Part shown: positions 2,879-28,608 of the stretch, piece by piece
How the letters are laid out: each line of letters starts with the position of its first letter
How positions within the stretch are numbered: the stretch's first letter is position 1
Notes under the pieces: generated by a model
Told to the model about the DNA's origin: nothing
Seen by the model: only the letters and a program-made list of their open reading frames with translations
Database searches by the model: none
Translations under genes and position numbers: made by a program
IMG/VR virus record: IMGVR_UViG_3300023178_001855
Span: 1 to 30,358 of that record
Source: a virus
Direction: 5' to 3' (one strand)
DNA: 30,358 nt

Positions 2879-3871
2879 TTACCACGGATCGCCTGACAAT
2901 TTCAATGAAGATGCGAGTTTTTGATCAGCGTATTTAAATCTAATTTTCATAATTTTGGTGCCGTTTACGCTTTTTATTCCAATGCTATTGGTACCAACTG
3001 GTACAATCTCGACATCTTCTCCCATCAATGATTTGTATTTTTCATTGTTGATCGGATCCATAATCATTGCACCATATGACTTTCCGGGCATACCGTAACC
3101 CGTTGATTGTACATAATACGGATATACTGTAGGAGATGCATCGAGCCAGTGAGTATACAAGTGTGCTCTTAACTCTGCCACCGGTAATTCCTTTAATCTT
3201 TCTAAGAGTATATCTCTAAGTTGATTTACTATTTGATCGGCGTGTTTTTCTGCTGCTATTCTGATGTCTTTGTTTTCAGGTGCTCTTAGAAACTTTTTTC
3301 TTGTTGCGGCAGTTTGGCTGAGTTTATTGGTAACAATAAAATTTTCGACACTTTTATTAATTTTGTCGATATTCAAACCTAATTCTTCAACAAGCCACCC
3401 AACACCATGATTTTTAAATCCAATTTTTTGTTTTGTTTTTGTTGACTTTGCAGATATACCAAGATATTCTGTGCCGTTTATTTCGTACAAAATGTCAGAG
3501 GGGTTTCCTAATTCGGCTGCGGGTACAGCAGAAACCAAAACATTTGGTCGAGCAGTCCACCATACCTTTGTTATTTCACCCTCAAAGCCATTTTCTTGCC
3601 GCCAATCTTCAATTTCTTCAAACATTTTAATTGCGCGCTGACTTTGTATTTCAAGTTCTGCTGATTTTTGTGCAGCAGTTAGTTGTGTTTTTCTCTGATT
3701 GATCGTTTGAAAAGCCTCTTCGTAGTTGATAAATTTTGATGTATCACCACCTAGAGAATCGGATGCTATAAGTGCCAATAGAATTTCATTTACGTCAGCC
3801 CCAAGTGTATTTCGAGATTCACCCAAAACTCCCTCCATAATTTCAAGAATTGTTAACAAACTATCAGACAT
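2879..3871 (-). CDS. Putative restriction-endonuclease-like protein, AT-rich
   Basis: A 330-residue protein I cannot assign firmly. The centre reads NPSDILYEINGTEYLGISAK (123-142) followed by GFKNHGVGW (151-159). A PSD...strand...G-[IL]-S-x-K-S arrangement with a following G-F-K-N-x-G is a pattern I associate with type II restriction enzymes of the PD-(D/E)xK fold; Asp126 and Lys142 would be the catalytic pair, although the usual acidic residue before the Lys is Ser140. The N-terminal third is helical and charged. The gene is markedly AT-richer than its neighbours: two 60-nt stretches I counted are 30% and 32% G+C, against 52% in one GroEL stretch. It sits just upstream of a D12 methyltransferase. 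A transferred restriction-modification module is the leading idea; a structural or unrelated protein remains possible. Confidence 0.45.
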   Translation of the reverse strand: MSDSLLTILEIMEGVLGESRNTLGADVNEILLALIASDSLGGDTSKFINYEEAFQTINQRKTQLTAAQKSAELEIQSQRAIKMFEEIEDWRQENGFEGEITKVWWTARPNVLVSAVPAAELGNPSDILYEINGTEYLGISAKSTKTKQKIGFKNHGVGWLVEELGLNIDKINKSVENFIVTNKLSQTAATRKKFLRAPENKDIRIAAEKHADQIVNQLRDILLERLKELPVAELRAHLYTHWLDASPTVYPYYVQSTGYGMPGKSYGAMIMDPINNEKYKSLMGEDVEIVPVGTNSIGIKSVNGTKIMKIRFKYADQKLASSLKLSGDPW

Positions 3872-6316: not shown

Positions 6317-7339
6317 TCACACACTCCTATTCAGAATGTGTGTTCTGCTTTCGCCAAGACCTGCGGAGGTCTGACGAACAAACTTGGCTCTATGTTGTAG
6401 TTCATGGATAGAGCGACAACCAGAGTAGGACAACCCAGAACGAATGCCTCGCTCAAGGTCTTCAAGAACGTTCTTTACCTTGCCTCGGTAGGGAACAGTA
6501 GCGGAGACACCTTCAAACGAAGAGTAGCGTCCTCTCCAATCCATTTGCGCCTCCTTGGACGCCATTCCTCGGTAGGTTTTAAATTTACGACCTGTTCCGT
6601 CTACAAGGGTTTCTCCGGGTGTCTCGCGCGTTCCAGATAGCAAGGAACCCAACATTACAGCGTCTGCGCCAGCAGCGAGAGCCTTTACAATGTCGCCAGA
6701 GTTGCGAATGCCTCCGTCGGCAATGATAGTAACGTCGCGGTCTGTGCGAGAACAATCAAAGATCGTCTGCAAGCCGGGGTGTCCGTGTCCTGTCTGGATT
6801 CTGGTAGAACAGATAGAGCCACCACCAATGTTGCATCGAACGGAGTCTGCTCCCCAGTCTGCGAGGTCGTTTACGCCTTCGAGGGTTGCTACGTTGCCTG
6901 CCATGATGTGGATTTGGGAACCCAATTCATAACGCAAATTTTTCAAGGCTTCTCGCATCTTGACGTGGTGGCCATGAGCAACGTCAACGCAAACAAATGT
7001 TGCGCCTGCCTTTACGCCCTCTTCAGCACGATCAAGGTAATCGTTATCAATGCCAACAGCGAATCCGATGTTGGCTACGCCGCTACTTTTGGCAGCACGA
7101 ATCATTTCGGTTTGCTGCCCGATTGTGTTGTAGCGGTGTAGAACACCAGCACTGCTTGCATGGTGCATTGCTTCTGCCATCATTACCTCGGAAATAGTAT
7201 CCATCGGTGAAGCAAAGATGGGTAGTCCGAGTTCTAGTCCGTTCCCCAGATTAGAAGAGATATCCACTTCAGATCGAGAGCGGATATCGGAGTATTGTGG
7301 TAAGAGTAAAACGTCGTCATAGGTTAATGCTGTCTCCAT
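6317..7339 (-). CDS. IMP dehydrogenase / GMP reductase family enzyme, CBS-less
   Basis: A 340-residue TIM-barrel enzyme of the GuaB/GuaC family. It starts LTYDDVLLLPQYSDI, shows ASPMDT (43-48), the NAD-binding MAGNVAT (146-152), the catalytic-Cys loop IGGGSICSTR (171-180, Cys177), IIADGGIRNSGDI (205-217) and TYRGMASKEA (255-264). There are no CBS domains and the segment between YRGM and VPYRG is short, as in GMP reductase; the DGGIR-x-SGD-x-KALAAGA and C-terminal AGLGES segments look more like IMPDH. So the direction (IMP to XMP, or GMP to IMP) is undecided. The usual GPGS is GGGS here. With the PurA-like gene at 10442 it forms a purine-branch pair. SD AGGAA; the thioredoxin-like gene ends 2 nt upstream. 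Confidence 0.88.
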   Translation of the reverse strand: METALTYDDVLLLPQYSDIRSRSEVDISSNLGNGLELGLPIFASPMDTISEVMMAEAMHHASSAGVLHRYNTIGQQTEMIRAAKSSGVANIGFAVGIDNDYLDRAEEGVKAGATFVCVDVAHGHHVKMREALKNLRYELGSQIHIMAGNVATLEGVNDLADWGADSVRCNIGGGSICSTRIQTGHGHPGLQTIFDCSRTDRDVTIIADGGIRNSGDIVKALAAGADAVMLGSLLSGTRETPGETLVDGTGRKFKTYRGMASKEAQMDWRGRYSSFEGVSATVPYRGKVKNVLEDLERGIRSGLSYSGCRSIHELQHRAKFVRQTSAGLGESRTHILNRSV

Positions 7340-7341
7340 TG

Positions 7342-7704
7342 TTAGTTCCTATTGTTGTCAATAAACTTGCGGATTCCGGTTGGGTGGAACCACATTTCTT
7401 TATGCGGTTGCGGCGGGTCTTCCATGAAACGCACACGAGGACGCATACCTCCGGTGCGGACATAACAAATGGAAGGAACTCCACTAAATCCCCACTTCTT
7501 TTCTAGACCCTCGCCGTCTTCCATGTTGAATGCATAGAAGTGAACATCACCATATTCATCGGAAATGTCTACGAACTGCGGCTTTAGAGCGTGACATAGG
7601 TGACAATTGGAGCCATAGAGTTTAATTACGACTTCGTGTTCACCTGTCACTCCGCCACCTAGGATTTGGTCTAGGTTTTTTCGATTGATTCTGCTAACTG
7701 CCAT
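7342..7704 (-). CDS. Thioredoxin-like protein (CHLC active site)
   Basis: A 120-residue thioredoxin-fold protein. VVIKLYGSNCHLCHALKP (25-42) places a CxxC pair at Cys34 and Cys37, and GVPSI (75-79) gives the cis-Pro that faces the active site; DVHFYAFNMED is the intervening strand. The CHLC dipeptide differs from the CGPC of classic thioredoxins. The likely role is to pass electrons from host reductase to a phage enzyme, plausibly the class II ribonucleotide reductase at 21962, whose C-terminal Cys pair needs re-reduction. SD GAGAGGATAG precedes ATG. It overlaps the DUF3310 gene by 11 nt and precedes the IMPDH-family gene by 2 nt. An unrelated disulfide carrier role is possible. Confidence 0.82.
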   Translation of the reverse strand: MAVSRINRKNLDQILGGGVTGEHEVVIKLYGSNCHLCHALKPQFVDISDEYGDVHFYAFNMEDGEGLEKKWGFSGVPSICYVRTGGMRPRVRFMEDPPQPHKEMWFHPTGIRKFIDNNRN

Positions 7705-7999
7705 TTTCTATCCTCTCGATTAGTCGGTCAAGATACCAACGGGCTTTCTTGAGGTCTTCAAGGGGATCTGCCTTGTGTTGGTGTCTCGCAACATACTTTA
7801 CCACGTTACCGGCATTGAAGTCAAGTTTCCAATCATCGATTGCGTCAATTACTTCAATCTTTCCGGTGTTGTAATGTGAGGGGTGATTGACGGCTTCGCG
7901 TCGTGCTAGACCTTCAAGTCCTGTTAGGTTGTCGGAGAACTCGTCATCGTGAGAGCCCTGCGAATCAAATAGGTCAATCATCTGTGTTGGTGTGGGCAT
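7694..7999 (-). CDS. DUF3310 (SaV-like) phage protein
   Basis: A 101-residue protein from ATG at 7999, which lies 6 nt after GGAGG; a TTG one codon upstream is less well placed. Signature segments are NHPSHYNTGKIEVIDAID (38-55) and GNVVKYVARH (64-73), followed by DPLEDLKKARWYLDRLI, the hallmark order of the DUF3310 family found widely in phages. As I recall, T7 gp1.7, reported as a nucleotide kinase, carries a related domain, so a role in dNMP handling is possible. The neighbours (dUTPase, thioredoxin, IMPDH-family enzyme) fit nucleotide metabolism. It overlaps the upstream zinc-finger gene by 26 nt and the thioredoxin-like gene by 11 nt. Confidence 0.85.
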   Translation of the reverse strand: MPTPTQMIDLFDSQGSHDDEFSDNLTGLEGLARREAVNHPSHYNTGKIEVIDAIDDWKLDFNAGNVVKYVARHQHKADPLEDLKKARWYLDRLIERIENGS

Positions 8000-8231
8000 C
8001 AATTACCTCCTGTGCTTTATTGATGCAATCTGGGCAAAATAGGGTTACCTGCGTTGGATTTTCCCGTACAACTACTCGCCATGTGAGCGCATGTTCCTTG
8101 GATTTGGGGTCAAATGCGGCGTTACATGCTGAGCAGTTGTCCGGTCTGTGGCTAAAGGTGGAAATTTTTTGGGCGAGTTTTTCGTTGCCTTTATTCTTCT
8201 TCTTGAGCCGTCGCCGTTGTGCCCTATTCAT
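7974..8231 (-). CDS. Small zinc-finger protein with basic N-terminus
   Basis: An 85-residue protein of unknown function. It opens MNRAQRRRLKKKNKG, a strongly basic helix, and then has two CxxC knuckles, CSAC (33-36) and CPDC (66-69), separated by 29 residues, the layout of a treble-clef or zinc-ribbon fold. The intervening HALTWRVVVREN strands fit. DNA or RNA binding is an inference from charge and zinc motif. ATG overlaps the methyltransferase stop as ATGA, with GGAGCGACC in front, so it is translated with that gene. The Asn-containing HNH catalytic residues are not seen, so an HNH nuclease is unlikely. Confidence 0.75.
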   Translation of the reverse strand: MNRAQRRRLKKKNKGNEKLAQKISTFSHRPDNCSACNAAFDPKSKEHALTWRVVVRENPTQVTLFCPDCINKAQEVIDAHTNTDD

Positions 8232-8707
8232 GGTCGCTCCATTCCTGTGATGCGGGGTCCGTCAAATGCGGACGGACGAAAAACCACCACTGCTGATGGG
8301 AATGGTGCGCTATTCGTCTCATCACCAAATTTGATGCGTCCTCGAACAAAGCGAATCTCGTCTGCCTTCATCACGTACTCGTGCCAGTATGCAGTATCAG
8401 TACGGGCGGGGATAAGCATAACAACCATTGTGTTTTCCTTAAGTCCCTCTTCGTATGACTTCTTGACCCAATCCTTTAGTCCGCGACCATAAGGTGGGTT
8501 GAGAAATACTCGATGACCAGACCAATCCTGTGATAAGGAATCATCTGCCTGAGTGTAATACTTTGCGACCTTGTAGTTGTCGTCTGATGCAGCAGCGTCT
8601 AGAGTAAATGGACCATAGATGCTGTTTAGTTTGTCAAAGATGGACTGCGGAGTAGCCCACTCGTTTGACTTTGAACTAAACATGACTTCTCGTGTATTCT
8701 TATCCAC
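8228..8707 (-). CDS. Phage DNA N6-adenine methyltransferase (Dam_2/PF05869-type)
   Basis: A 159-residue methyltransferase of the small phage DNA N-6-adenine-methyltransferase family. The N-terminal VMFSSKSNEWATPQ leads into FTLDAAASDDN (34-44), the SAM-pocket equivalent, and the catalytic FLNPPYGRG (68-76) carries NPPY. MVVMLIPARTDTAYWHEYV and RFVRGRIKF complete the family pattern. It methylates adenine N6 in DNA; specificity is unknown. I take GTG at 8707 as start (GGGAG 5 nt before); ATG at 8683 is an alternative. It overlaps the dUTPase by 8 nt. It is unrelated in sequence to the D12 enzyme at 2093, so this phage carries two adenine methyltransferases, probably for protection from host restriction. 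Confidence 0.88.
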   Translation of the reverse strand: MDKNTREVMFSSKSNEWATPQSIFDKLNSIYGPFTLDAAASDDNYKVAKYYTQADDSLSQDWSGHRVFLNPPYGRGLKDWVKKSYEEGLKENTMVVMLIPARTDTAYWHEYVMKADEIRFVRGRIKFGDETNSAPFPSAVVVFRPSAFDGPRITGMERP

Positions 8708-9164
8708 CTGTACTCCCTAGGGCTCCTGAGCCTCGTTCTGAAATAGTGATTGGGTGACGCTCGTCGTAAAGTATTCCGTCTACTTCCTCAAATGCACGGA
8801 AGTGGACTACTGGAATCATTACCAATTGAGCAATCTTGTCTCCGTGCTTGATGTCCTGACTACGATGCCCAACGTTGTGAAGATTGATGAAGACCTCTCC
8901 GTCGTAACCAGAGTCAACGACGTGGGCTCCAACAACAAGACCACGCTTGGCTGCTACACTTGAGCGGTTCATAACCTGTAGCATGTAGCCGTGTGGAATG
9001 CCAAACTTCAGCCCTGTTGGGATTAGGACAGAATGTCCGGGCAGAATAACCTTGAAGTCATCCTTTCCTCCGAGGAAAGCATAGATGTCAAGACCAGCAT
9101 CCGAGGGGTTCGAGCGAGTTGGATGCTGCACGTCGCTGTAAAGGCGATGATACTCAATAATCAT
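8700..9164 (-). CDS. dut: dUTPase (deoxyuridine triphosphatase)
   Basis: A 154-residue trimeric-type dUTPase, the usual length. All five motifs are visible: I SDAGLDIYA (21-29), II MNRSSVAAKRG (65-75, with RSS where RSG is common), III VDSGYDGE (83-90), IV GDKIAQLVMIPV (108-119) and V RGSGALGSTG (144-153). It hydrolyses dUTP to dUMP and pyrophosphate, keeping uracil out of DNA and supplying dUMP to thymidylate synthase; the partner here is ThyX at 19878. ATG overlaps the stop of the preceding gene as ATGA, and the gene overlaps the methyltransferase start by 8 nt. Catalytic Asp and Tyr of motif III are intact, so I expect it to be active. Confidence 0.95.
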   Translation of the reverse strand: MIIEYHRLYSDVQHPTRSNPSDAGLDIYAFLGGKDDFKVILPGHSVLIPTGLKFGIPHGYMLQVMNRSSVAAKRGLVVGAHVVDSGYDGEVFINLHNVGHRSQDIKHGDKIAQLVMIPVVHFRAFEEVDGILYDERHPITISERGSGALGSTGG

Positions 9165-9418
9165 GGGTTCTCCGTATCTTCGCCCGAAAGCGCCTTGTAG
9201 TTGTCGTAAACCTCATCAATGTCAATCTTACCCTTGAACAGACGGTAAGCCTTCACAGCCGCACGGATCTCGTCGGTGTTCAGCCAGCCCTGCTCACGAT
9301 ACTCGGTACGCAGTTCGCGCTTCTGCTCCTTGTAAGGCTCCATGGCCTCTTCAATTGCTACGAGTGAACGGATGTACTCCATGACGTAGCGCTTCTTCTC
9401 TTCGGTTGATGTAGACAT
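9161..9418 (-). CDS. Hypothetical 85-aa helical protein, possibly GapR/DUF2312-like
   Basis: An 85-residue, highly charged, almost entirely helical protein. The order of features (an I-x-x-L helix, a K-x-E-x-R-x-E-Y helix, a turn GWLNTDEIRAAVKAYRL, and a final D-x-Y-x-x-Y-K-A-L) resembles GapR (DUF2312), a small DNA-binding protein of alphaproteobacteria that senses overtwisted DNA; the match is by eye and tentative. It begins its own transcript: a TTGACA-17-TACATT promoter lies 24-52 nt before ATG, and AGGAGGACAGC is the ribosome site. It heads the run dut, methyltransferase, zinc finger, DUF3310, so its product is probably made early or in quantity, as a nucleoid-type protein would be. Confidence 0.65.
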   Translation of the reverse strand: MSTSTEEKKRYVMEYIRSLVAIEEAMEPYKEQKRELRTEYREQGWLNTDEIRAAVKAYRLFKGKIDIDEVYDNYKALSGEDTENP

Positions 9419-9441
9419 GCTGTCCTCCTTGTTATGTTTGT

Positions 9442-9470
9442 AATGTAACTCGTCACGCTGCCGCTGTCAA
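9442..9470 (-). promoter_or_regulatory. Sigma-70 promoter upstream of the GapR-like/dut operon
   Basis: Minus-strand TTGACA (9465-9470), 17-nt spacer, TACATT (9442-9447). It lies partly over the 3' end of the UVDE gene and drives the 85-aa gene at 9418. The -10 box is followed by ACAAACATAAC and then AAGGAGG, nearly the same as at the thyX and uvdE promoters. Confidence 0.8.
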
Positions 9471-10409
9471 GCGCTCAGCGTCGTTTTTTTTAAGCCCGAA
9501 CAGGGCGAGTTCCTTCATCTTCGCCTCGATCATAACGTCGAGGTCGTAGCCGTAGTCGTCAACTGGTCCGTTGACGAAATCTGAGTGGGCATGTGGGCGA
9601 ATCTTGGAGTCGCGCTTTTCTTCAGCACGGGACTCGGAGTAGTGGACTACCGGCTTGATGTCTCCCCACGTCGAGATTGCAATTTCCAAGGCTTCTTTTT
9701 CTGTAAGACCGCCAGTGCAAAAACCGTGATGATGATAATCAAAAACAATCGGAATACCAGTCCTGTTGTAAACTCCCTCATAGAGTTCGATAGTCGAGTA
9801 AAGTGATTCACGGTCGTCATTCTCCACGGTTAGACGAGACTTCACGCTATCTGGTAGTCTCTCAAAGTTACGAGCAAATGTATCGAGGGCTACGGGCTTG
9901 TTGCCGTAGGCTGCGCCGACATGAATGTTAATCTTTGCGTAGTGATCTCGGGGCAAGCCAAGCATGTCGAAGAACTCTCCGTGAATCTCCAAGTCTCTCA
10001 AGGTGTTCTGAAACACCTTCTCATTTGGAGAAGCCAGCTTGTTGAATGGTCCGGGGTGAGAAGTAAGACGAATACCATGTTCCCGTGCATAGTTGCCTGC
10101 CTTCTCACAAGCCTCGAAGATTGCTTCATAGTCGGGCATGTCGTGGAGTTGGTACTCTGACGCCCAAGGAAAAACGTTGGAGGACAGACGGAAGAACTTG
10201 ATCCCGTGCTCAACATTCCATTCAAGGATCTTTTGGAGATCGAGTACGTTTAGGAGAGACAAGGAGGATGCATACTCGATCCCCTTCTCTTCAAAAGTTC
10301 TCTTGATCATGGAGCGATTAGTAGTGATTCTATCTTGCTTTTTACCACCATAATCCTGCGGGTTTGACAACTGCATGTTGATACATGCGTAGCCGTAGTT
10401 CTTGCTCAT
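9453..10409 (-). CDS. uvsE: UV-damage endonuclease (UVDE/UvsE)
   Basis: A 318-residue TIM-barrel repair nuclease. The opening GYACINMQLS, FRLSSNVFPWASEY, RLTSHPGPFNKLASPN, KINIHVGAAYGNK, RLTVENDDRESLYS and PIVFDYHHHGFC are the ordered family motifs, with His and Glu residues that bind three metals. The enzyme nicks 5' to UV photoproducts, starting an excision route that does not need UvrABC. The length matches bacterial UvsE. GGAGGACAG precedes ATG, and a TTGACA-17-TACATT promoter sits just in front, giving a leader of about 15 nt. A repair gene with its own promoter would suit a phage exposed to sunlight. Nothing in the motifs suggests loss of activity. Confidence 0.94.
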   Translation of the reverse strand: MSKNYGYACINMQLSNPQDYGGKKQDRITTNRSMIKRTFEEKGIEYASSLSLLNVLDLQKILEWNVEHGIKFFRLSSNVFPWASEYQLHDMPDYEAIFEACEKAGNYAREHGIRLTSHPGPFNKLASPNEKVFQNTLRDLEIHGEFFDMLGLPRDHYAKINIHVGAAYGNKPVALDTFARNFERLPDSVKSRLTVENDDRESLYSTIELYEGVYNRTGIPIVFDYHHHGFCTGGLTEKEALEIAISTWGDIKPVVHYSESRAEEKRDSKIRPHAHSDFVNGPVDDYGYDLDVMIEAKMKELALFGLKKNDAERLTAAA

Positions 10410-10430
10410 CTGTCCTCCAACGTTATAGAT

Positions 10431-10459
10431 AATGTAACCGGTCAGGCGGCTGCTGTCAA
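10431..10459 (-). promoter_or_regulatory. Sigma-70 promoter upstream of uvsE
   Basis: Minus-strand TTGACA (10454-10459), 17-nt spacer, TACATT (10431-10436). It overlaps the last codons of the PurA-like gene and points at the ATG at 10409, only 21 nt beyond the -10 box. Confidence 0.8.
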
Positions 10460-11449
10460 GGGATTTTCTTCGTGGATCGTGTGAGGGTTGTCAGAGAAAT
10501 AGATCTTCTCGATCCCTAGTCTCCGACTGAACTCGTCCGTGAGGTGCTTGCGGAAGTGACGCTCGCCGTGAAGGCGGCGCTCTGTGGTTCCCCAAGTGTC
10601 GATCTCGCGTAGAACGTCCATCTTGTTGACTACAAGGCGGTTCACGCCATTCATGTCAATTGCCTGACGCACTTCCCTTGTGTTGATCCAGTTACACTGA
10701 CGGACGCGACCTGTCGTAGCACCAAACTCAGCACCAACCTGCTGAATCTGATCAAACACAGCGTCGTCGGGCTGGAACTTACGCTTTCCAACATAAGTCT
10801 CGTAAGCCTTGATAATGCCCCAGACATTGCGGATAGAGCGTGGGTTGATTCCGTTTTGGAGGGCTGCTGCTGTTCCTGTGTGTGAAGACGTTACATAAGG
10901 GTAGTCACCCCAGTCTGGGTCAAGCCAGAAGCCCTGTGCCCCCTCCATTAGGATTACAGAGTCTCCAGAAAGTTCCTCATAAATGTCGATAATGAAGGAA
11001 TGAAGTTCGGGAATCTCACCAGCACGTACCCCACGGCGAGCATACTTATCCCTGTAAGCGGGTCCATTTCCCGTCTTAGTGGTTCCAATTCGTTCATCTG
11101 TTCCGTCCTGCGCCTTGTGTAGCGAAGTGATAATGTGTGCGTTTTCCGCAATCTTTAGGTGATCTCGGACGTTGATGCCGTGAGACTCAAGATACTCTAT
11201 TTCTTCAAAGAGTTTGACTGGATCGACCACGCAGCCGTTACCAATAACGGATGTAACACCAAAGAACACGCCAGCAGGAATGTGATGGGTAACCAACTTA
11301 ACGCCGTCGTGATAGATTGTGTGTCCAGCATTGCATCCCCCATTGAAGCGAACGCAGTGTGTGTATTCGCCACTCTTAAGTAGGTGGTGGGCGACCTTTC
11401 CTTTACCTTCGTCTCCGTGCTGAAGACCAATAACAATGTCGGTAATCAA
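10442..11449 (-). CDS. Adenylosuccinate synthetase homologue, archaeal-size (PurA/PurZ superfamily)
   Basis: A 335-residue enzyme of the PurA superfamily, about 100 residues shorter than bacterial PurA and the size of archaeal PurA and phage PurZ. Start is TTG (MITDIVIGLQHGDEGKGK) after AAGGAGGAAAC. Motifs: phosphate loop HGDEGKGK with catalytic Asp13 kept, CNAGHT (39-44, His43), IGTTKTGNGPAYRDKYARRG (121-140), MEGAQG (168-173), PYVTSSHTGT, ATTGRVR (244-250) and NKMD (275-278), the guanine-reading motif, which points to GTP use. Canonical PurZ, as I recall, has Ser in place of Asp13 and uses ATP, so this is not classic PurZ. It could make adenylosuccinate from IMP, or be like PurZ0, an alternative Z-genome enzyme keeping archaeal PurA features. 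No datZ or mazZ is seen here. Confidence 0.88.
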   Translation of the reverse strand: MITDIVIGLQHGDEGKGKVAHHLLKSGEYTHCVRFNGGCNAGHTIYHDGVKLVTHHIPAGVFFGVTSVIGNGCVVDPVKLFEEIEYLESHGINVRDHLKIAENAHIITSLHKAQDGTDERIGTTKTGNGPAYRDKYARRGVRAGEIPELHSFIIDIYEELSGDSVILMEGAQGFWLDPDWGDYPYVTSSHTGTAAALQNGINPRSIRNVWGIIKAYETYVGKRKFQPDDAVFDQIQQVGAEFGATTGRVRQCNWINTREVRQAIDMNGVNRLVVNKMDVLREIDTWGTTERRLHGERHFRKHLTDEFSRRLGIEKIYFSDNPHTIHEENPLTAAA

Positions 11450-11565
11450 GTTTCCTCCTTGTTTCTGAACTTGTACCAATACTTTAACATGGGAACGGAA
11501 CTGATGCAACTAAAAAGTGCCATCCATTCTCCGTGGCAGTTGAGCAGATGCTCCATTTAAGACCT

Positions 11566-12183
11566 CTAAATCTGGAAAAATTGCCTCAAAAAATTTTTGA
11601 CGATCTTTGCTTTTTCATCTTCACTTTCGGCTTCAGAAAAAACATAATCATAAGTGCTCTTCTTAGATTTTATCTGTTTATCAAGCTCTTTAGTTCGTTC
11701 TTTCATCCAGCGAATTTGTTCTATAATGTTGTCGGGAATTCGCACATCAAATTTTTCAGACATGTCAAGGAGTATAAAGTAATCGCCATCATCAAGCGCT
11801 CGCTTGGCTTCCTTGAACATAGATAATCTAACCTGTCGCTCTTCATCTGTCAAGCCAAAAGAGCGGTCTGGGTGAAGATTTAGCGCTAACTTCTTGAATA
11901 GTTCCTTGAAGGTCGAGTGTATTTCATCTTCTTCTTTTTGTTCCTGAATCTCAGAAACAATCAGCTTTTCTTTTCGAGGATCTCGGGGCGGGACAGGTAG
12001 CGCTCCTTTTTCTTGATTAAGTTTTTGTAAATCTATGTCGTTTTCTGAGCAGTAGTTTTCAAGAAACATTTGAAAATCAACCGCATGTGCTTCACATGTT
12101 TCTATAACAAGATTTAGTTCTTCATGCTTGAACTTCGTTTCGTTTAGTGCTCTCTTCCACTTTAACAAATCTGTTACTCTCAA
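11566..12183 (-). CDS. J-domain (DnaJ-like) protein
   Basis: A 205-residue protein with a central J domain. FKELFKKLALNLHPDRS (92-108) contains the HPD tripeptide (104-106), followed by a helix (LSMFKEAKRALDDGDYFILL) of the form seen in J-like phage and bacterial proteins. The flanks are charged and helical, with no Gly/Phe or zinc regions of full DnaJ. HPD stimulates Hsp70 ATPase, so the product probably recruits host DnaK to a phage target; the 90-residue N-terminus may be the client-binding part. The start is TTG, because the only good ribosome site (GGGAGG, 8 nt before) lies in the 3' arm of a terminator-like hairpin. A 116-nt gap separates it from the PurA-like gene. Confidence 0.82.
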   Translation of the reverse strand: MRVTDLLKWKRALNETKFKHEELNLVIETCEAHAVDFQMFLENYCSENDIDLQKLNQEKGALPVPPRDPRKEKLIVSEIQEQKEEDEIHSTFKELFKKLALNLHPDRSFGLTDEERQVRLSMFKEAKRALDDGDYFILLDMSEKFDVRIPDNIIEQIRWMKERTKELDKQIKSKKSTYDYVFSEAESEDEKAKIVKNFLRQFFQI

Positions 12184-12185
12184 AG

Positions 12186-12216
12186 CAAAAACCTCCCACC
12201 ATAAATAGGTGGGAGG
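12186..12216 (-). terminator. Perfect 9-bp hairpin with T-tract; holds the J-gene ribosome site
   Basis: Perfect arms CCTCCCACC (12192-12200) and GGTGGGAGG (12208-12216) with a 7-nt loop. On the minus strand the stem is followed by TTTTTGCTTTG, the form of an intrinsic terminator for the DnaE/47-aa transcript. The 3' arm read on the minus strand contains GGGAGG, the Shine-Dalgarno of the TTG-started J-domain gene. Confidence 0.85.
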
Positions 12217-12222
12217 CTGACA

Positions 12223-12366
12223 CTAACCTTTGCCCTGACCGCGATACTTCTTCTTGTAGCCCTTATTACCACCATGTGGTCCCGGTTGCTTGCGCTTTGT
12301 TAGAGCACTCTTGCCAATACTGGTCTTTTTCTTGGGTGCTTTGTTGTGTGTCTTCTTCTGTGCCAT
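12223..12366 (-). CDS. Tiny basic protein (47 aa)
   Basis: A 47-residue protein made almost wholly of Lys, Arg, Gly, Asn and Thr: it begins MAQKKTHNKAPKKKTSIGKS and ends KGYKKKYRGQGKG. Small proteins with a SIGxS...YRGQGK layout recur, as I recall, in aquatic phages with no assigned function. Ribosome site AAGGAG lies 6 nt before ATG. It follows DnaE by 16 nt and ends just before the terminator hairpin, so it is the last gene of that operon. Nucleic-acid binding or a DNA-condensing role is suggested by charge alone. It is too short to have been picked up by length-based gene finding. Confidence 0.75.
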   Translation of the reverse strand: MAQKKTHNKAPKKKTSIGKSALTKRKQPGPHGGNKGYKKKYRGQGKG

Positions 12367-12382
12367 GCTTTACTCCTTATTG

Positions 12383-15300
12383 TTAGCCTAGCAATCTAAA
12401 GTTTCTGTAGAGAGACCTCGTTGAGAAACCCCATTTTGGATCGTAATCCAGTCGCGACATGTAGGGGCGGTTGATCTGAATGCTATCCTTCTTTGGATCA
12501 ATGCCCCAACACTTAATCTTTTCTGTCTCGTTGTTTGAGTCAATAACCTCAACAATCCAGAAGTCCTTGCCCTTCTTTGTCTTTCTCGGAACAACCTTGC
12601 GTGGGATAAACCAGCAGATCTGTAGTTCCTCGTCAAACTCGGAAATGGGTGGAATGTACTTGTCCTTCAGTTTCTGGATAGTCTCGGGACTAATGACCAA
12701 GTTCATTGGGAACACGCCAGTCAATTCAGTCTTAAACTGGATGATCTCTTCCTCTGAGAAGTCGCCTTCTGGTCTGTAGAGATCAATGTTGTCGTGGAAC
12801 TTCTTCTTGGTCTTCGGACGATCAATCACGGACGCACACCAGAAGTGCTTGCGACCTGTGAAGCGGTCGTCAATTAGACTATCCATTGCTCCTGCCCTAC
12901 AGAGGGCGTCAAGTGCCTTCTTGTTTAGTTTAGCATACTTTACCTCTTCTCGGAACAAGAAATCCTCAATGTCCGTGAATGGGCGATTATCAAGCACCTG
13001 CTCCATTGCAGACTCACCAAAGCCCTTGATGCTTGTGAGGGGCTGGATAAGAGTCTTGCCGTCGCTAGTAATCTCCCAAGTCCTACCGGATGTGTTCACG
13101 TCTACGGGCGCAATCTTGTAGCCAAGAGACTTAGCAATGTTGATTGCGTTCTCCTTCTTGCTCTCGGGCTCTTTGTCGAGGAAAGCAGCAAGCCACTCTG
13201 CCTCGAAGTAAGTTAGGAGCCAAGCGCACTGATAAGAAATGATAGAGTAGGAAACAGCGTGGGATTTGTTGAAACCATAGCCAGAGAAGTATTCAAACTT
13301 CTCCCATAGACCCTGTGCTTCACTTCTAGCGATGCCCTTCTCCACACAACCATCAATGAACTTCTTGTGGATCGCATCCTTGACCTCAAAACCCTTTCCG
13401 GTTCCCTTCTTAGTTAGGAGTTTGCGGAGCAAGTTACCCTCGTCAAGAGTCAAATCCTTACCAAGTGCGTGAGCAATCTTGGCGATTTGTTCCTGAAAGA
13501 TCAAGAAACCAAACGTTTCTTCGGTGATCTCCTGCACCTCTGGTGTGAGATACTTGATGTACTGAGGGCTTTCCTTGGCGTCAATGTAATCCTCGTGGAC
13601 GTTAGCCGATAGAGGACCGGGACGATAGATGGAAGTGATAGCGGAAACATCAATGATGTTGTTTGGCTTTACTCGCTCTGCGAAGTTCTGCGCTCCGTCC
13701 TCGGTGAACTGGAAAGTGCCTACGAAGTTGCCCTTATGGAAAACATTTTTGTAGACTCTCGCGTCATCGAGGTTGATAACGTCAGGGTGAAGGTTGTTGT
13801 CGTAGAAGTCCTTGACCTGCTTGAATGTTGGTTCTGCAATGCCGTGGTGGCGCTTGAGAATCAACTCAATAGCAGTCTCCATCATAGCAAGGGTCGAGAG
13901 ACCAAGAAGATCGAACTTGATGAAGCCCATTGGTTCAAGATGGCGAACGTTCTGTCCCTCGGACCAAGGCGTCTGACGAACGCCCTTGGAGTTGATAAGG
14001 GGCATGTTCTTGTCTAGATCCTCGGCAATCACAACACCGCCAGCGTGACGAGACGCAGAGCGAACCTGACCGACGAGAGCACGGACGTGTGTCTTGACGT
14101 GAGGATACTTGCTCAAGAATCCCTTGAGAGAACTTGAGAACTCAAGCACCTCTTCCCAAGTTGGGGTGTACATTCCTGCCTTGATGCCGTGCTTCTGCTT
14201 GGCGAGAGGCGTTGCCTCCTTAATCATAGCGTTGGTTACGAGATTGACCTCGCTGAAAGGAATCTGATAGAGTTTGGAAATGTCCTTGATAAGAGACTTC
14301 AACTGGAGAGTGTTCCAGTTAGAGATTGGAGCAACACATTCCTCACCCCACAACTCAATCAACTTGTCCTTCAGTTCCATTGGGCGACTAATGTCATAAT
14401 CAATGTCTGGGTAATCCTTGGCGTCAGAACGTAGGAATCGTGAGAATAGAAGGTCGTACTTGATTGGATCGACCTGTGTGATCCCAAGAGCATAGGCAAC
14501 AAGTGAACCAGCGGCAGAACCACGACCGGGACCTGCAAGCATCATTGTGTCTGTAACGTCTACGATTGCCTTCATAGTCAAGAAATACTTTGAGAAGCCT
14601 CGGTCGTCAATGACGTGGAGTTCTTCTTTTAGTCTCGCAAGGTACTGCTTGTTGTCGGCAAGACCCAACTTACGCAGACCTTCAAGTGAGAAGTTGATTA
14701 GCGCCTCAGTTGCGGTGTGTCCTGCGGGCACAACGAATGAAGGAAGGCGAACAGTGTTATCTGGAAGGAAGTTCTCAATGCGATCAAACGCGATTCGGTG
14801 TGTCTCTTCAATAGAACGCAACACAAGGTCGTCATCGTAGTCAGTATTACACAACTTAGAGTAGTGCCTGTAGGACTCCCACATCTCGTCACCATTCTTG
14901 GGATAGAGTTCGTAACCAATCTCGTCAACAGAGACAGGCAGATCGCTCTCGGTGTCTGCCCACTGCGGGCGACCCTTACCAAGCCAACCCAAGCGCTTGT
15001 AGAGTTCTCGGTCCTTCCAAGCATCACGATTGGGGTAGTGCGAGTCTGCGGTCGAGATCACCTTTACACCAAACTCGTCACAAACCTGAATAACAAACTT
15101 GTTTAGTTCGTGCTGCTCTGGGACATTGTTCCACTGAATCTCGCCGTGCCAGCGATCACCAAAGATGTCCACCATCTGGCGGGTTGTCTCTCGCATAGCC
15201 TCAAGCACAGCCTCTGGTCCTTCCTCTCGGTTCTCCCAGTAGTTACCAGCATAGACGCCGCCAAGGCAAGCGGAGGAAGCAATAATGCCCTCGCTGTGAT

Positions 15301-18158: not shown

Positions 18159-19033
18159 AATGGTCCTAAAATTCTTTTGTGGGCTCTCGCTATGTCGGGG
18201 AGTTGTAGGAGAAGTGTTTCCTCAGAAATCTGCGGAACTTTGATCGAATCTGTCTCCAACCAAATTGGAGGAGATGATAGGAATTTATGGCGATCGAGCG
18301 CTTCAACCTTGAAACTTCTGTATTTTCTCGATCCGTCTGCTTGCCATCCATTTTTTGGTCCTCTTAGTCCTAAATCCTTCATTTTCTTGACGGCTGTAAT
18401 CCTCACTATGGTCTCTGAAAAATCAAAGTCGCCAATCTGTTCGTCTGATAAAATTGAGAGCACACAGGCGTCTTTTACGGGGTTATTGCCGTCAATTCTG
18501 TGAGTTGGATAGAACCAGATCTCATTACAGAAGTGGTCTTCGCTCCCTATAAAGCCAAGGTGGTGCTTGCCGCCCCTTGAAAAGGCTAGTCTATCCCACA
18601 CTTGATAGGTTTTTGGTCTATTCTCGCAAGGAAGCAGATTGTAGGTTGCGTGCTCGTCAAAGTAGTAGCAAACTCCGAAGTCAATTGACCTTAGTTTAGC
18701 ATAATCGGAGTAGCCCGTCAAGGTGTTTTCGTCCAAACGGATCGAAGAACATAGATCAGAGAAAGGCACAAGCCCTTTCAATCCGAGAACAAAGAGCAAG
18801 TGCTCCCAAAGAGCGATCTTTTGCTGACCTGTGGCTAGTTCGCCGTCGGGTGTAGTCCAGAGTTGAGGTTCGTTGTGAAGACCCCAACTAGACAGGTCAA
18901 CAGATAGTCCAAAGAAATCAAACTCAAACGGCTTCTCTGGTTCTGTGAAGAACACGGGAATGTCCCGTTCTGCTGCGAACAAGAGGGCGCGGAGAGAAGA
19001 GCCAACTACGATTTCGTCGTAGTAAGGGTTCAA
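18143..19033 (-). CDS. Rossmann-like protein (possible FAD/NAD-binding N-terminus)
   Basis: A 296-residue protein whose start is TTG, overlapping the preceding stop as TTGA with GGGGGATAG in front. The N-terminus YDEIVVGSSLRALLFAAERD (5-24), then IPVFFTEPEKPF, is a beta-alpha-beta unit of the type that opens FAD or NAD(P) enzymes, with G-S-S-x-x-A in place of G-x-G-x-x-G and an acidic residue after the second strand. The remainder is not recognised; Trp-rich strands and GKHHLGFIGSEDHFCNE stand out. It overlaps the nucleotidyltransferase-like gene by 16 nt. A flavin- or nucleotide-dependent modification enzyme is possible, but no catalytic motif is visible. Length and composition give no sign of truncation. 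Confidence 0.6.
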   Translation of the reverse strand: MNPYYDEIVVGSSLRALLFAAERDIPVFFTEPEKPFEFDFFGLSVDLSSWGLHNEPQLWTTPDGELATGQQKIALWEHLLFVLGLKGLVPFSDLCSSIRLDENTLTGYSDYAKLRSIDFGVCYYFDEHATYNLLPCENRPKTYQVWDRLAFSRGGKHHLGFIGSEDHFCNEIWFYPTHRIDGNNPVKDACVLSILSDEQIGDFDFSETIVRITAVKKMKDLGLRGPKNGWQADGSRKYRSFKVEALDRHKFLSSPPIWLETDSIKVPQISEETLLLQLPDIARAHKRILGPLWLNT

Positions 19034-19662
19034 CTATCCCCCTTCATCTCCTTGATTACCTGCTTTGCGAGGCGTGAGATGAGGAACTTTGTATTGTTCT
19101 GCATTTTGCTCTTGATCTCAAGTCCTTCTGCGAACTTGATTGGTCGCTTGGACTTGCCGACGCGGGTCATAAACTCGCCTTCCTTGCCGCCAAGGAAACT
19201 ACCCATTTCCTCTTCTTTGCCGTAGCCGGGGAACTCTGCGTCGTTAGTGCCGATAAGGTAAGACTCTTCGCCGCCTCGGGGAACGAACAAGACAGAATCC
19301 TGACAAAAGTGCTCTCCAAGACCAGCGATAGAAGCCTTGAAGTTCGGGTCGTCTTTGAGATTTACAACAAAGAATGAGTCTTCCTTTACCTCTTTTGCGG
19401 CGTCAGTTCCAAAGTCCTCAACATAAGTGCCGTCTACGTCAGTGACGCCATAGCCTTTCTGTAAAAGAACAGCCTTCATCTGGCGGTTGCGCTCGTAGTT
19501 CTCCATAGCGTTGCTGTGGTCTGGACGGCACTTTGTTCTATCCTTTGGATTATCACGAAACGCAGTCAAGAATGCTGTGTCGTGGTTTAGAATGTGCTCG
19601 TAGGTACGGCTGATTGAACTTTCGTTTATAAAGCCCTTCCACTCGTTTAGTATTTCTTTCAT
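19030..19662 (-). CDS. Hypothetical 210-aa protein with capsid-targeting-like N-terminus
   Basis: Unrecognised protein, seemingly of a type seen in other phages (a DUF3293-like layout cannot be excluded). The N-terminus MKEILNEWKGFINESS resembles the T4 internal-protein targeting leader (MKTYQEFIAEA), where a head protease cuts after an [IL]-x-E. The body has HDTAFLTAFRDNP, NRQMKAVLLQKGYGVTDVDG, KEDSFFVVNL, LGEHFCQDSVLFVPRGGEES and GEFMTRVGKSKRPIKFAEG, which read as a compact alpha/beta domain. Ribosome site GGGAG precedes ATG. It ends 4 nt inside the Rossmann-like gene. If the leader is a true targeting signal, the protein would be packaged in the head and delivered with the DNA; that is a hypothesis only. 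Confidence 0.65.
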   Translation of the reverse strand: MKEILNEWKGFINESSISRTYEHILNHDTAFLTAFRDNPKDRTKCRPDHSNAMENYERNRQMKAVLLQKGYGVTDVDGTYVEDFGTDAAKEVKEDSFFVVNLKDDPNFKASIAGLGEHFCQDSVLFVPRGGEESYLIGTNDAEFPGYGKEEEMGSFLGGKEGEFMTRVGKSKRPIKFAEGLEIKSKMQNNTKFLISRLAKQVIKEMKGDS

Positions 19663-21460: not shown

Positions 21461-21733
21461 TTATTCCATTACTCCTATTACATAATTCTCTAAAATTGTG
21501 TAATAAGTAGAATGGTCGATTGATAAAACGTCCAACATCTTCTTGTCTATGATAATTTTATTGCCTTTTTCGCACCCGAAGGACACGTCGTCGGCAACGC
21601 CCAAGACCTCAACAACAACGTGATTGAGTTCTGGGGCTTTGTAGTCGTCAGGAAGAAGAATTCCTGAATCTGACTTCTCCTGTGGGGGAGTGTAATCCAC
21701 TAGAATGTGGCGATTTACTGGCTTAAACATCAT
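21461..21733 (-). CDS. groES: GroES-like co-chaperonin (Cpn10)
   Basis: A 90-residue protein (89 if the second of two adjacent ATGs is used). FKPVNRHILVDYTPPQEKSD (3-22) then SGILLPDDY reproduces the GroES first strand and the mobile loop, with G-I-L-L-P where GroES has G-I-V-L; VVVEVLGVADDVSFGCEKGN, KIIIDK and YTILENYVIGVME complete the beta-barrel. Its likely partner is the GroEL-like protein at 514-2091, or host GroEL as with T4 gp31. It overlaps the preceding zinc-finger gene by 11 nt, and the amidase ATG follows its stop. The split location of groES and groEL by about 19 kb is unlike the bacterial groESL operon. Confidence 0.85.
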   Translation of the reverse strand: MMFKPVNRHILVDYTPPQEKSDSGILLPDDYKAPELNHVVVEVLGVADDVSFGCEKGNKIIIDKKMLDVLSIDHSTYYTILENYVIGVME

Positions 21734-21961: not shown

Positions 21962-23923
21962 CTAGAGTTCACAATGATCTGAATCACAGAACTTGGTTCC
22001 TGCGCCACCTTCGTCAGTTGAGAAACGCTGAACAGGTGTAATGTTCTTGGACATTTCTTCGTACTGCTCTCTGGTGATAGGCTCGTAAGGTGCCTGAACG
22101 TAGCCGGTTTCTTCGTAGCGAAGGAATGAGACAGCCTTGAGTCTGCCTTCGTACATTTCAAGGGCAGTCTTGATGTCTGCTGCTTCTTCCGGCTTGAAGG
22201 TGACGGTAATAGACACAGAGTTATCAGCCCAGAAGTGCTGGTATTGCGCTGCGATCTCCAACTGTTCCCACATTGTGATCTCGCGCTTACCTTTCATGAA
22301 ATGTTCTTCGTGAACAGGGAACTCGACACACATGGTATTTGGTGAGTAGTGGTCTGGCTCAATCTTGTAGCCTGCTTCTCTGAGTGCTGGTAGCATGTCG
22401 CTGTCGGCAGCAAAGCGAATGCGACGAATGTAGAACTCATCCTCTGGGTAGTGGATTCCGGGTGTAGAGCCGTTGAGAAGAGAAACCGTTCCTGAAGGCT
22501 TGATAGAAGTCATTCTAACAGACTGCGGAATGCAGAGCCAATCAGAGTATTGCTTATCCAACTCACGGACATGTTCATAAGCATCATCGCACCAGTTTAG
22601 CATCTTACGACGACCAAACTTGTTGAAAGCCTGAACAACACCAGACTGAGAAAGACCGATTCGGCGGTTCTTTAACATTTTTGCGTTAGTCTCAGCCCAA
22701 TGGGTGTTTGCAAGAGTAACAGTCTTGCCGTAAAGGTAGGCAATTTTGAGTGTTGCGAGGTAATCCTCGTAGGTTTCGTGCTTGGCTGGGAAGGTCTCAA
22801 CAAGACAGCACAACTCAGCGTCTTCCAACTGCTGCTCAACGCAGGGGTTGAAGCCCATAACGTTCTTATCGTCGTCACGGGGAGGATCGGCAAAGCGACC
22901 ACGGGTTCTTGCGTTGTCCAGCCAAATGTAGCCGGGCTCTCCGTTCTTCTGTGACTGCTCTGCGTGCCAAGTGTAGTCCTGACCAACAATAGCGTGGAAA
23001 GAGTTGTTTGAACCCCAACGATGGTGAGCCAACTTCTCAGAGTCGTTCTTCATCTGTAGGTAATCAAAGTCTTCGTGGTTACCAAGAGCCAACGCAGCAG
23101 AACGACGAACGTTACCCGCTACCACACAGCGACCGATTAGGTTTTCTGTGTCTACAATGTCTACGGAGGTGATTGGCTGACCGATGCGTGGGGTATAAAG
23201 TTCGATTAGGCTCTCATGTAGTTCCTTGAGAGGTCCGTGACCGCTAGAAGTTCCACCAAATCCGTTGATTGGAGCACCATAGGGACGAATAGCGGAGTAA
23301 TCAAAAGTGGGGACTTTAGCGCCAAAGAGGAAGCCATTTAGAAGAATCTTGACTGAATTGACCCAGCCTTCGCGGGAATCGTCAATGACGTAGTTCTCGT
23401 TTGTGAACTCTGGCTGCTGGACTGTTAGTGAGCCTGCACCAAGTGTGTCGAAACCAACACCAATACCCAACATAAGAGCGTCCATCATCCAAGCAAAGAG
23501 ATAACCACCCTTGCTGTTGAGTTCTCGGGTTGAGCGGAAAGCGCAATTGAATAGACCAGCAGCGGTACGTTCGTTTACGAACTTGGTTCCCATCATCCAA
23601 AGACCACGACCGGGTGGTGTCCACTTTAGATTGAATAGACGATCGTAGGCGTCCTTTGCTGTCTTCTGTGCTTTGTTGTCGTTCCATTCAAGACCGAGAC
23701 GATAGACGTGCTGTTTCTGCATCTCAAACATGCCCTCAATAACGCGACGGCAGGTCTGGTACCATTCTTCAGTTCCGCTTGCGTTCTCGTCAAACTCGTT
23801 CAAACGGCGGGCATAGGTGCGTTTGAATGTTACATAGCCAAGCGGTCCCCAAGGAACTTCCTGTTCCTTGTACTGCTCTATGAATGTGTCTGATAGTTTA
23901 AATCTACGAATGTGTGTTCTCAT
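21962..23923 (-). CDS. nrdJ: Class II (adenosylcobalamin-dependent) ribonucleotide reductase
   Basis: A 653-residue monomeric class II RNR of the Lactobacillus leichmannii RTPR type (739 residues). LFNCAFRST (Cys127) is the first redox Cys; FNPCVEQQLEDAELCCLVET (359-378) has the radical Cys361, Glu363 and second redox Cys372, with the 11-residue spacing of Cys408/Cys419 in the model enzyme. The C-terminus FCDSDHCEL carries the shuttle pair Cys646/Cys651. It makes deoxyribonucleotides from ribonucleotides with B12 as radical source, independent of oxygen. The Cys shuttle needs a thioredoxin; one candidate is at 7342. No intein is present. ATG overlaps the helicase stop as ATGA. Host-supplied or scavenged cobalamin is implied. 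Confidence 0.95.
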   Translation of the reverse strand: MRTHIRRFKLSDTFIEQYKEQEVPWGPLGYVTFKRTYARRLNEFDENASGTEEWYQTCRRVIEGMFEMQKQHVYRLGLEWNDNKAQKTAKDAYDRLFNLKWTPPGRGLWMMGTKFVNERTAAGLFNCAFRSTRELNSKGGYLFAWMMDALMLGIGVGFDTLGAGSLTVQQPEFTNENYVIDDSREGWVNSVKILLNGFLFGAKVPTFDYSAIRPYGAPINGFGGTSSGHGPLKELHESLIELYTPRIGQPITSVDIVDTENLIGRCVVAGNVRRSAALALGNHEDFDYLQMKNDSEKLAHHRWGSNNSFHAIVGQDYTWHAEQSQKNGEPGYIWLDNARTRGRFADPPRDDDKNVMGFNPCVEQQLEDAELCCLVETFPAKHETYEDYLATLKIAYLYGKTVTLANTHWAETNAKMLKNRRIGLSQSGVVQAFNKFGRRKMLNWCDDAYEHVRELDKQYSDWLCIPQSVRMTSIKPSGTVSLLNGSTPGIHYPEDEFYIRRIRFAADSDMLPALREAGYKIEPDHYSPNTMCVEFPVHEEHFMKGKREITMWEQLEIAAQYQHFWADNSVSITVTFKPEEAADIKTALEMYEGRLKAVSFLRYEETGYVQAPYEPITREQYEEMSKNITPVQRFSTDEGGAGTKFCDSDHCEL

Positions 23924-27826: not shown

Positions 27827-28608
27827 TATTTCTTTCCTGCTTTTGACTTCTTGCCCCAAGACTTGCCGCGACCTCGCTCTTTGCAGGCTGAAGGTGTTGG
27901 GCGACAAGAAGGATACTTAGAGCGCTTTTCTTTTCCAGATCGACCGCAAGGCTTGCACTTTCCTTTACGACAAGTGTTGCAATCAACCCAGCCGCCTTTC
28001 TTACCGGGAGCGCCCTTGCGCTTGAACCAGTCTCTTAGATTGGACTCTTTGCTTGATTCGCTACCTGCTTTCTTTTTTTTTGCTTCCTCGATCGTTCCGA
28101 GTTTAGAGTAGTAGGCTGGATCTTCGTAGACATGATCTATAGCAATCTCGTGTGCTATCTCTTCGTCTGTTGTGTGTTCTAGTTCTACCTCAATTCCTCT
28201 ATCAATCTCGGCTTCGATCTGTTCTAGTGAAACGCCGTGTCTATCGGCAAGTTGCTGGTGGATTGACTCCATAGAGCCTTCCATTCCAGAAGTAAGACCG
28301 CCGGGAATGCGCTCTTTGAACTCTCTTAGAACAGCAGCGTGCTCTTCTGCGATAATTTGTAGTAAATGGTCGTCTAGTTCTAGACCTTCGTTCTTCTTAG
28401 ACTTATTGCCCCAGTTTTTAGCACCAACTTTGCGGCACTTGACGAGAGCACCAGAGGCATAAGCACTAGGCCACACGTCATAGCGAGCGCGAACCTTGTG
28501 GTAGCAAGCGTCACGCTTTGCTTTCTTCTTCTTTTTCTTCTTTTTTCTTTTCTCATCTAACGCAATCTCTTCAAGAGCGTCTTCGTCTATTTCATAAAGG
28601 TCTTCCAT
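27826..28608 (-). CDS. 260-aa basic Cys-module protein with polylysine tract
   Basis: Unrecognised, but with two modules I associate with aquatic phage hypotheticals. Residues 21-31 are a near-pure Lys run (RKKKKKKKKAK). ACYHKVRARYDVWPSAYASG (34-53), then ALVKCRKVGAKNWGN, is the first Cys module. The middle is acidic and helical with LLQIIAEEHAAVLREFKER (82-100). The C-terminus has WFKRKGAPGKKGGWVDCNTC, then GKCKPCGRSG and YPSCRPTPSACKERG, a second Cys-rich basic module that I recall as DUF5872. Function and location are unknown; DNA binding or a virion role would suit the charge. The A-rich Lys tract is a candidate slippage site. It overlaps the 802-aa gene by 1 nt. Confidence 0.72.
   Translation of the reverse strand: MEDLYEIDEDALEEIALDEKRKKKKKKKKAKRDACYHKVRARYDVWPSAYASGALVKCRKVGAKNWGNKSKKNEGLELDDHLLQIIAEEHAAVLREFKERIPGGLTSGMEGSMESIHQQLADRHGVSLEQIEAEIDRGIEVELEHTTDEEIAHEIAIDHVYEDPAYYSKLGTIEEAKKKKAGSESSKESNLRDWFKRKGAPGKKGGWVDCNTCRKGKCKPCGRSGKEKRSKYPSCRPTPSACKERGRGKSWGKKSKAGKK

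Follow-up and report, generated by a model that had tools for sequence, protein, structure and literature searches.

Phage PurZ, a member of the adenylosuccinate synthetase (PurA) superfamily, takes dGMP and ATP as substrates, as stated in PMC8342488. According to PMC12884076, all 147 phage PurZ and PurZ0 sequences surveyed have Ser where the catalytic Asp would stand; PMC8515928 likewise gives Ser at this position in PurZ. A preliminary description of the gene studied here had said that classic PurZ has Ser at the Asp position and uses ATP; its premise that PurZ0 keeps the Asp was wrong. The genomic partners of PurZ0 are dutZ and dmtZ, unlike those at the present locus (PMC12884076). The purA gene itself already figures among the viral auxiliary metabolic genes listed for estuarine metagenomes (PMC13288924). 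Our literature search, which covered titles, the starts of abstracts and few subscription papers, returned no description of a phage PurA paired with a GMP reductase.

The window analysed is a complete IMG/VR virus record of 30,358 bases. At 10442..11449, on the minus strand, it encodes a compact phage PurA of 335 aa plus stop, which starts with TTG at 11449 and has a probable ribosome-binding site, read from the sequence as AAGGAGG (11454..11460, minus), 4 nt before the start; the plus strand there is interrupted by stops. The frame had been described exactly, though without its strand, and the two motifs named for it are both present: GDEGKGK (residues 12–18, 11396..11416, minus), which includes the catalytic Asp13, and the guanine-reading NKMD (residues 275–278, 10616..10627, minus), equivalent to E. 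coli K331/D333. Alignment places a PurA-type aspartate/ribose loop, GATTGR, at residues 243–248 (10706..10723, minus). The protein matches Pfam PF00709 (Adenylsucc_synt) at 288.4 bits (E 1.1e-85, threshold 27), far beyond chance. Upstream lies a DnaE-type polymerase gene.

Elsewhere in the window, all on the minus strand, are a 653-aa class II (B12-dependent) ribonucleotide reductase carrying an RNR_Alpha domain (21962–23923), GroEL-like (514–2091; PF00118, 218 bits) and GroES-like (21461–21733; PF00166, 33 bits) genes, and an 829-aa ORF with leucine-rich-repeat-variant repeats (25418–27907; PF01816, 125 bits). A 330-aa ORF (2879–3871) has no match in Pfam, PHROGs or phage records, and homologues of it occur at 5 of 80 PurA loci.

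A scan of viral contigs gave 105 relatives, of which we kept 80. Seventy-five of these 80 loci encode compact PurAs with 52–100% identity to the window protein; the other five form a second phage lineage, with 34–38% identity and longer frames of 397–408 aa. The N-terminus was read in 67 of the compact proteins, the other eight loci being truncated, and GD.GKGK is present in all 67. The top match in an annotated phage collection has 39.3% identity. Among the best 80 of at least 582 cellular stretches, the nearest relative is a 56% match in L168, a MAG contig that is possibly a phage contig, followed by others at 35–40%, many from Bacteroidota; those translated have frames of 386–438 aa. In one 300-kb viral record (L071) the compact PurA lies in a region (8079–13670) that also encodes a pol III clamp loader, a beta clamp and two sigma-factor-like proteins.

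Bacterial-type NCBIfam models score the window protein highest (NF002223, 291 bits; TIGR00184, 258 bits), above the archaeal model NF003295 (182) and the PurZ model NF038379 (111), with every score under the model's own cut-off (258–291 for the purA equivalogs vs 395–402 needed). The single PHROGs family matched, PHROG_1211, is labelled '2-aminooxy adenylosuccinate synthetase', a label that is no proof of PurZ function. All 28 compact rows in our alignment keep the catalytic pair (D13 and H43 of the window, equivalents of Asp13 and His41), the GTP-type site (K276 and D278, equivalents of K331 and D333) and the equivalents of N38, T129, R143, Q224, T239, V273, T300, T301, R303 and R305. Roles for Asp13, R303 and the Val are described in PMC12884076, PMC8515928 and PMC8342488, the last of which places R303 of PurA beside the ribose O2' of IMP; since the compact PurAs keep R303, their substrate is likely to be a ribonucleotide.

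Twenty-two alignment columns are diagnostic, in that the seven PurZ/PurZ0 rows have no letter in common there with 23 PurA rows (bacterial-type and archaeal). The window protein carries the PurA letter in 15 of them, the PurZ letter in 2 (R223 and T324, both variable), neither in 4 and a gap in 1; across all 28 compact rows the 616 cells divide into 404 PurA, 36 PurZ, 147 neither and 29 gap. R223 coincides with R244 of the S-2L enzyme. The aspartate loop, GATTGR as in bacterial PurA, reads GTVTGR in archaeal PurA and TTVT in PurZ and PurZ0.

The compact proteins were compared with cellular PurAs in a 63-row tree (28 compact phage, 4 long phage, 1 huge phage, 21 bacterial-type, 2 archaeal, 4 PurZ and 3 PurZ0). 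The 28 compact rows form one clade (100/100), and a further 100/100 branch groups this clade with the bacterial-type PurAs and separates it from archaeal PurA, PurZ and PurZ0, with a long-branch warning on the PurZ side. The seven PurZ/PurZ0 rows form a clade of their own (100/99) that excludes the window protein, and a clade of compact PurA with PurZ and PurZ0 was rejected (p-AU 0.026). The larger clade that adds the archaeal rows, of which there were only two, was not rejected (p-AU 0.239); an archaeal-side origin of compact phage PurA is nonetheless not favoured. The earlier epithet 'archaeal-size' holds for length, Pyrococcus horikoshii PurA having 339 aa, but an archaeal affinity is not confirmed, since bacterial-type profiles score higher. 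The P. horikoshii enzyme (5k7x) lacks similar segments and has a similar fold, and differs from the window protein in its lower profile score, its 100/100 branch with PurZ/PurZ0 and its GTVTGR loop.

An AlphaFold model of the window protein (pLDDT 91.1, from an alignment that included five cellular PurAs) matched E. coli PurA best (1cg4; Z 40.6, rmsd 2.0, 322 residues aligned), with several PurAs tied. P. horikoshii PurA followed at Z 38.1, PurZ0 7vf6 at 34.1 (rmsd 3.0, 314 aligned) and PurZ 6fm1 at 32.6 (2.8, 312); two PurA structures, 6c25 (Z 29.4) and 6bs7 (Z 29.1), ranked below PurZ0 and PurZ. E. coli PurA, which the window protein resembles in its catalytic Asp, GTP-site Lys and Asp, GATTGR loop, fold and best tree placement, has 431 aa, and the compact protein is shortened mainly by two internal segments (E. 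coli residues about 154–196 and 360–394). Besides scoring under the NCBIfam purA cut-offs, the compact PurAs are changed at three sites that are otherwise invariant in 21/21 bacterial-type rows: R272 to Tyr (28/28 compact rows), G276 to Lys or Arg (27/28) and R306 to Gln. These changes could alter kinetics or substrate.

The sequences themselves show the family membership, the kept catalytic and substrate residues, the clade and, as described below, the recurrent linkage. Profile scores, active-site columns, predicted fold and tree together make a strong case that the gene is a purA, and we regard it as very probable that its product, considered alone, functions as a PurA. The AMP-making PurA that had been offered as an equal alternative is the reading that profiles, residues, tree and predicted fold all support.

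About 3 kb downstream of purA, the window carries a gene for an enzyme of the IMP dehydrogenase (IMPDH)/GMP reductase (GMPR) family that has no CBS domain (340 aa, 6317..7339, minus; assigned from profiles, alignment, linkage and tree), which we propose to be a GMP reductase. The intervening block (7342..10409), all on one strand (minus), holds genes for a thioredoxin (7342–7704), a DUF3310 protein (7694–8002), an 85-aa ORF (7974–8231), a Dam-type N6-adenine methyltransferase (8228–8707), a dUTPase (8700–9164), a second 85-aa ORF (9161–9418) and UvdE (9453–10409); synteny was examined in the relatives. Within the 80 relatives kept out of 105, the partner gene lies 1.1–6.5 kb downstream of purA, on the same strand, at 60 of 75 compact loci. 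These loci are partly redundant, and when the 67 rows read are grouped into clusters at 95% identity the partner is found in 39 of 50. In the long-PurA lineage the order is reversed: the partner lies upstream on the same strand at 5/5 loci, its stop codon at most 2 bases from the purA start in four of them and 657 bases away in the fifth (L081). At L078, L080, L082 and the truncated L079, the stop of the IMPDH/GMPR-like gene touches, or sits 1 base from, the start of the 400-aa PurA. Such abutting pairs are likely to be translationally coupled. Searches of whole records found the partner in 18/27 compact and 3/3 long records. This recurrent linkage of compact purA to a CBS-less IMPDH/GMPR-family gene, together with the abutting arrangement in a second lineage, is new here.

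Which reaction the partner catalyses was judged on 34 phage partner rows (25 from the window and partner loci, 5 from compact-PurA records and 4 from long-PurA loci; cL268, with no sequence, and L079, too short, were left out). GMP reductases differ from IMPDHs in having no Arg418–Tyr419 dyad and a truncated flap (PMC2525682, section 11). By this criterion and the alignment, the window partner has a truncated flap, MASKEAQMDWRGRYSSFEG (residues 259–277, 6509..6565, minus). The flap spacing is 14 in 34/34 phage rows and 22, 22, 24 and 27 in four IMPDHs; it is 10 and 10 in GMPR2-type enzymes, 14 and 14 in two distant phage proteins whose reaction is unassigned, 17 in Legionella 3r2g and, on a by-eye count, 17 in E. 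coli GuaC, the search pattern having missed GuaC and XacN1. A GMAS motif is found in all 34 phage rows, GMGS in 4/4 IMPDHs and GMAG in Trypanosoma brucei GMP reductase. In the partner tree the phage proteins form their own clade (99/93), apart from IMPDHs, GMPR1 and GMPR2, and the four IMPDHs group among themselves (100/100), the phage proteins falling outside. The closest parallels are T. brucei GMP reductase (6lk4/6jig) and Legionella 3r2g, the latter deposited as an IMPDH, which have, like the phage group, an IMPDH-like body with GMA; their flap has no Arg–Tyr dyad, and in the phage group the dyad is not conserved, although its letters occur in the window copy. The T. brucei enzyme differs in its 504-aa chain with CBS domains and in its untruncated flap. 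On these features the phage partner is more likely a GMP reductase.

On the best-surviving rival reading, the neighbouring gene would encode a CBS-less IMP dehydrogenase free of feedback control, and the phage would bring both committed enzymes of the IMP branch (PurA towards AMP, IMPDH towards XMP and GMP) and control the branch point. The tight two-gene linkage fits this equally well. The best NCBIfam profile of the partner is IMP_dehydrog, at 282 bits, far below the 481 needed, and the GMPR models (176–223 bits) also fall under their cut-offs. The top fold matches are IMPDHs (4mya, Z 41.0; T. brucei GMPR 6jig, Z 39.9), from a model of pLDDT 80.8 in which the flap and C-terminus are below 50, and the C-terminal AG..ES..H resembles IMPDH. 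The partner also keeps the Cys-x-Thr loop and the Glu, features common to both families, and the window flap does contain the letters Arg–Tyr (GRYSS). Against this, the flap is 8–13 residues shorter than in the IMPDHs, GMA replaces GMG, and the dyad is not conserved across the 34 phage rows, relatives reading GKF, GNY, GEY, GHT, GRT, GKA or GRH. We consider an IMPDH unlikely, while giving it some weight.

With the partner as a GMP reductase, the pair would form a guanine-to-adenine shunt, for which we infer the substrates, the direction of the partner reaction and the physiological purpose. The partner would convert GMP and NADPH to IMP and NH3 and so serve as the IMP source for PurA, which would join IMP to aspartate, with GTP hydrolysis, to give adenylosuccinate; host PurB would then yield AMP. 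A PurB-type lyase was found in 0/28 records of the phage group (controls 14/14). Guanine nucleotides, released for instance when host RNA is degraded, would in this way be turned into adenine nucleotides that supply phage DNA and ATP. The abutting of the two genes in the second PurA lineage raises our confidence in this shunt slightly, and we regard the GMP–IMP–adenylosuccinate route as a whole as somewhat probable. The term 'purine-balancing enzyme', used in the preliminary description, is upheld as a hypothesis, now sharpened by a recurrent neighbour with GMP-reductase-type features.

Less probable still than an IMPDH neighbour is a PurA acting as a stand-alone auxiliary metabolic gene, which would supply more AMP and dATP or escape host PurA regulation, its neighbour merely sharing a common nucleotide-gene island. 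The partner is missing at 15 compact loci: at 6 of them the contig ends too early, whereas 9 have 10 kb of downstream sequence. These nine, among which are the deepest branches within the compact clade, have no partner-family member in that 10 kb or in the whole record. The window also has dUTPase, thioredoxin, class II ribonucleotide reductase and ThyX genes, and purA is a known viral auxiliary metabolic gene, at least in the estuarine metagenomes covered by PMC13288924. The reverse linkage is weak, PurA being present at 13 of 80 partner loci and at 8 of the 30 with at least 6.6 kb of upstream sequence. This suggests that the partner is perhaps the commoner gene and that PurA was added to its island or is often lost. 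The idea that a different purine gene takes the place of PurA in partner-only phages was rejected on 2 of 22 such loci: L107 and L145 each have at that position an ORF of 233/234 aa, one with a sub-threshold DnaJ match and the other without a Pfam match. What speaks against a stand-alone role is that the partner recurs at 60/75 compact and 5/5 long loci, in two arrangements, and abuts purA at four of the five long ones; we rate such a role as improbable.

A PurZ0- or PurZ-like enzyme making a 2-aminoadenine precursor from dGMP for a Z-genome, which had been one of the readings first offered for this gene, now seems very improbable. The protein is homologous to PurZ and PurZ0 (NF038379, 111 bits; the PHROG_1211 label) and of similar length, and it shares R223 with S-2L. 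PurZ0 of Gordonia phage Archimedes (7vf6) is likewise a phage-borne member of the PurA superfamily with Asp at the D333 position, and the PurZ enzymes of phiVC8 (6fm1) and S-2L (7odx) match it in superfamily and size. PurZ0 of Archimedes differs, however, in having Ser for Asp13, Met at K331, the TTVT loop, Arg for the PurA-invariant Lys267 and Ile for Thr271, and the two PurZ enzymes in Ser for Asp13 and in F and N/Q in the nucleotide site, as in 4/4 PurZ at the K331/D333 positions. In our alignment Ser occupies the catalytic position in 7/7 PurZ/PurZ0 and Asp in 28/28 compact phage proteins, in line with the 147/147 Ser reported in PMC12884076. Identity with PurZ0 is rejected on the grounds of Asp13, the diagnostic columns (15/22 PurA letters), the tree, in which the protein falls among bacterial-type PurAs, and the p-AU of 0.026.

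Genome content points the same way. It had been remarked that neither DatZ nor MazZ was in view, and in the window we found no DatZ match and, among the 30 proteins scanned with Pfam, no MazG match. When the search was extended to related records, datZ (query, phage Bm1 DatZ; controls 2/2, Bm1 itself and BUCT555) turned up in none of the 28 phage records of the group, and MazG in none of 28 virus records (23 carrying compact PurA and 5 the neighbour gene, the window lying outside that set); many of the 28 are possibly fragments, and five exceed 180 kb. The one MazG match among 29 records was in the MAG that holds L168. Searches for DUF550 and DUF5664 gave no match and were silent in the controls too, including BUCT555, whose record is annotated with DUF550. 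PolA-family frames, a point in favour of a Z-genome, occur as weak matches in 11/28 related records (392–414 aa, one of 242), with none in the window, whose polymerase is DnaE-type. Such frames, mostly of about 400 aa, are seen in the records of L004, L009, L055 and others (G003, G002, G011). The window encodes two N6-adenine methyltransferases, the D12 one below its NCBIfam cut-off and above that of Pfam, and this suggests adenine in the phage DNA. Asp13, the GTP site and the PurA loop are kept, the protein falls outside the PurZ+PurZ0 clade, and the relatives searched yielded no DatZ or MazG; a 2-aminoadenine genome in this phage is not supported. Alongside the two methyltransferases, a 210-aa protein (19030–19662, minus) matches Pfam S-AdoMet_lyase at 45.9 bits.

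That the gene is inactive or has some other function, as its two missing segments (E. coli about 154–196 and 360–394) and the changes at otherwise invariant sites might suggest, is scarcely credible given catalytic and ligand residues kept in 28/28 rows, a clade seen at 75 loci and a P. horikoshii PurA that is just as short.

Returning to PurA with a GMP reductase partner, the occurrence of the pair in two PurA lineages with two gene orders raises the possibility, put forward tentatively, of a dedicated module in which a CBS-less GMP reductase and PurA would shift host purines from G to A during infection; in a bolder form, deoxy-IMP would be the substrate of the compact PurA, which carries Tyr272 and Lys/Arg276, giving a route from dGMP through dIMP to dAMP. 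The best tree, if correct, implies more than one origin of the short PurA architecture. Going by the PHROG_1211 label, this phage and its relatives (75 compact loci) might be mistaken for Z-genome phages; the sequence tests argue against that. The shunt, if real, would be opposite in sense to the Z pathway, with guanine nucleotides feeding ordinary adenine.
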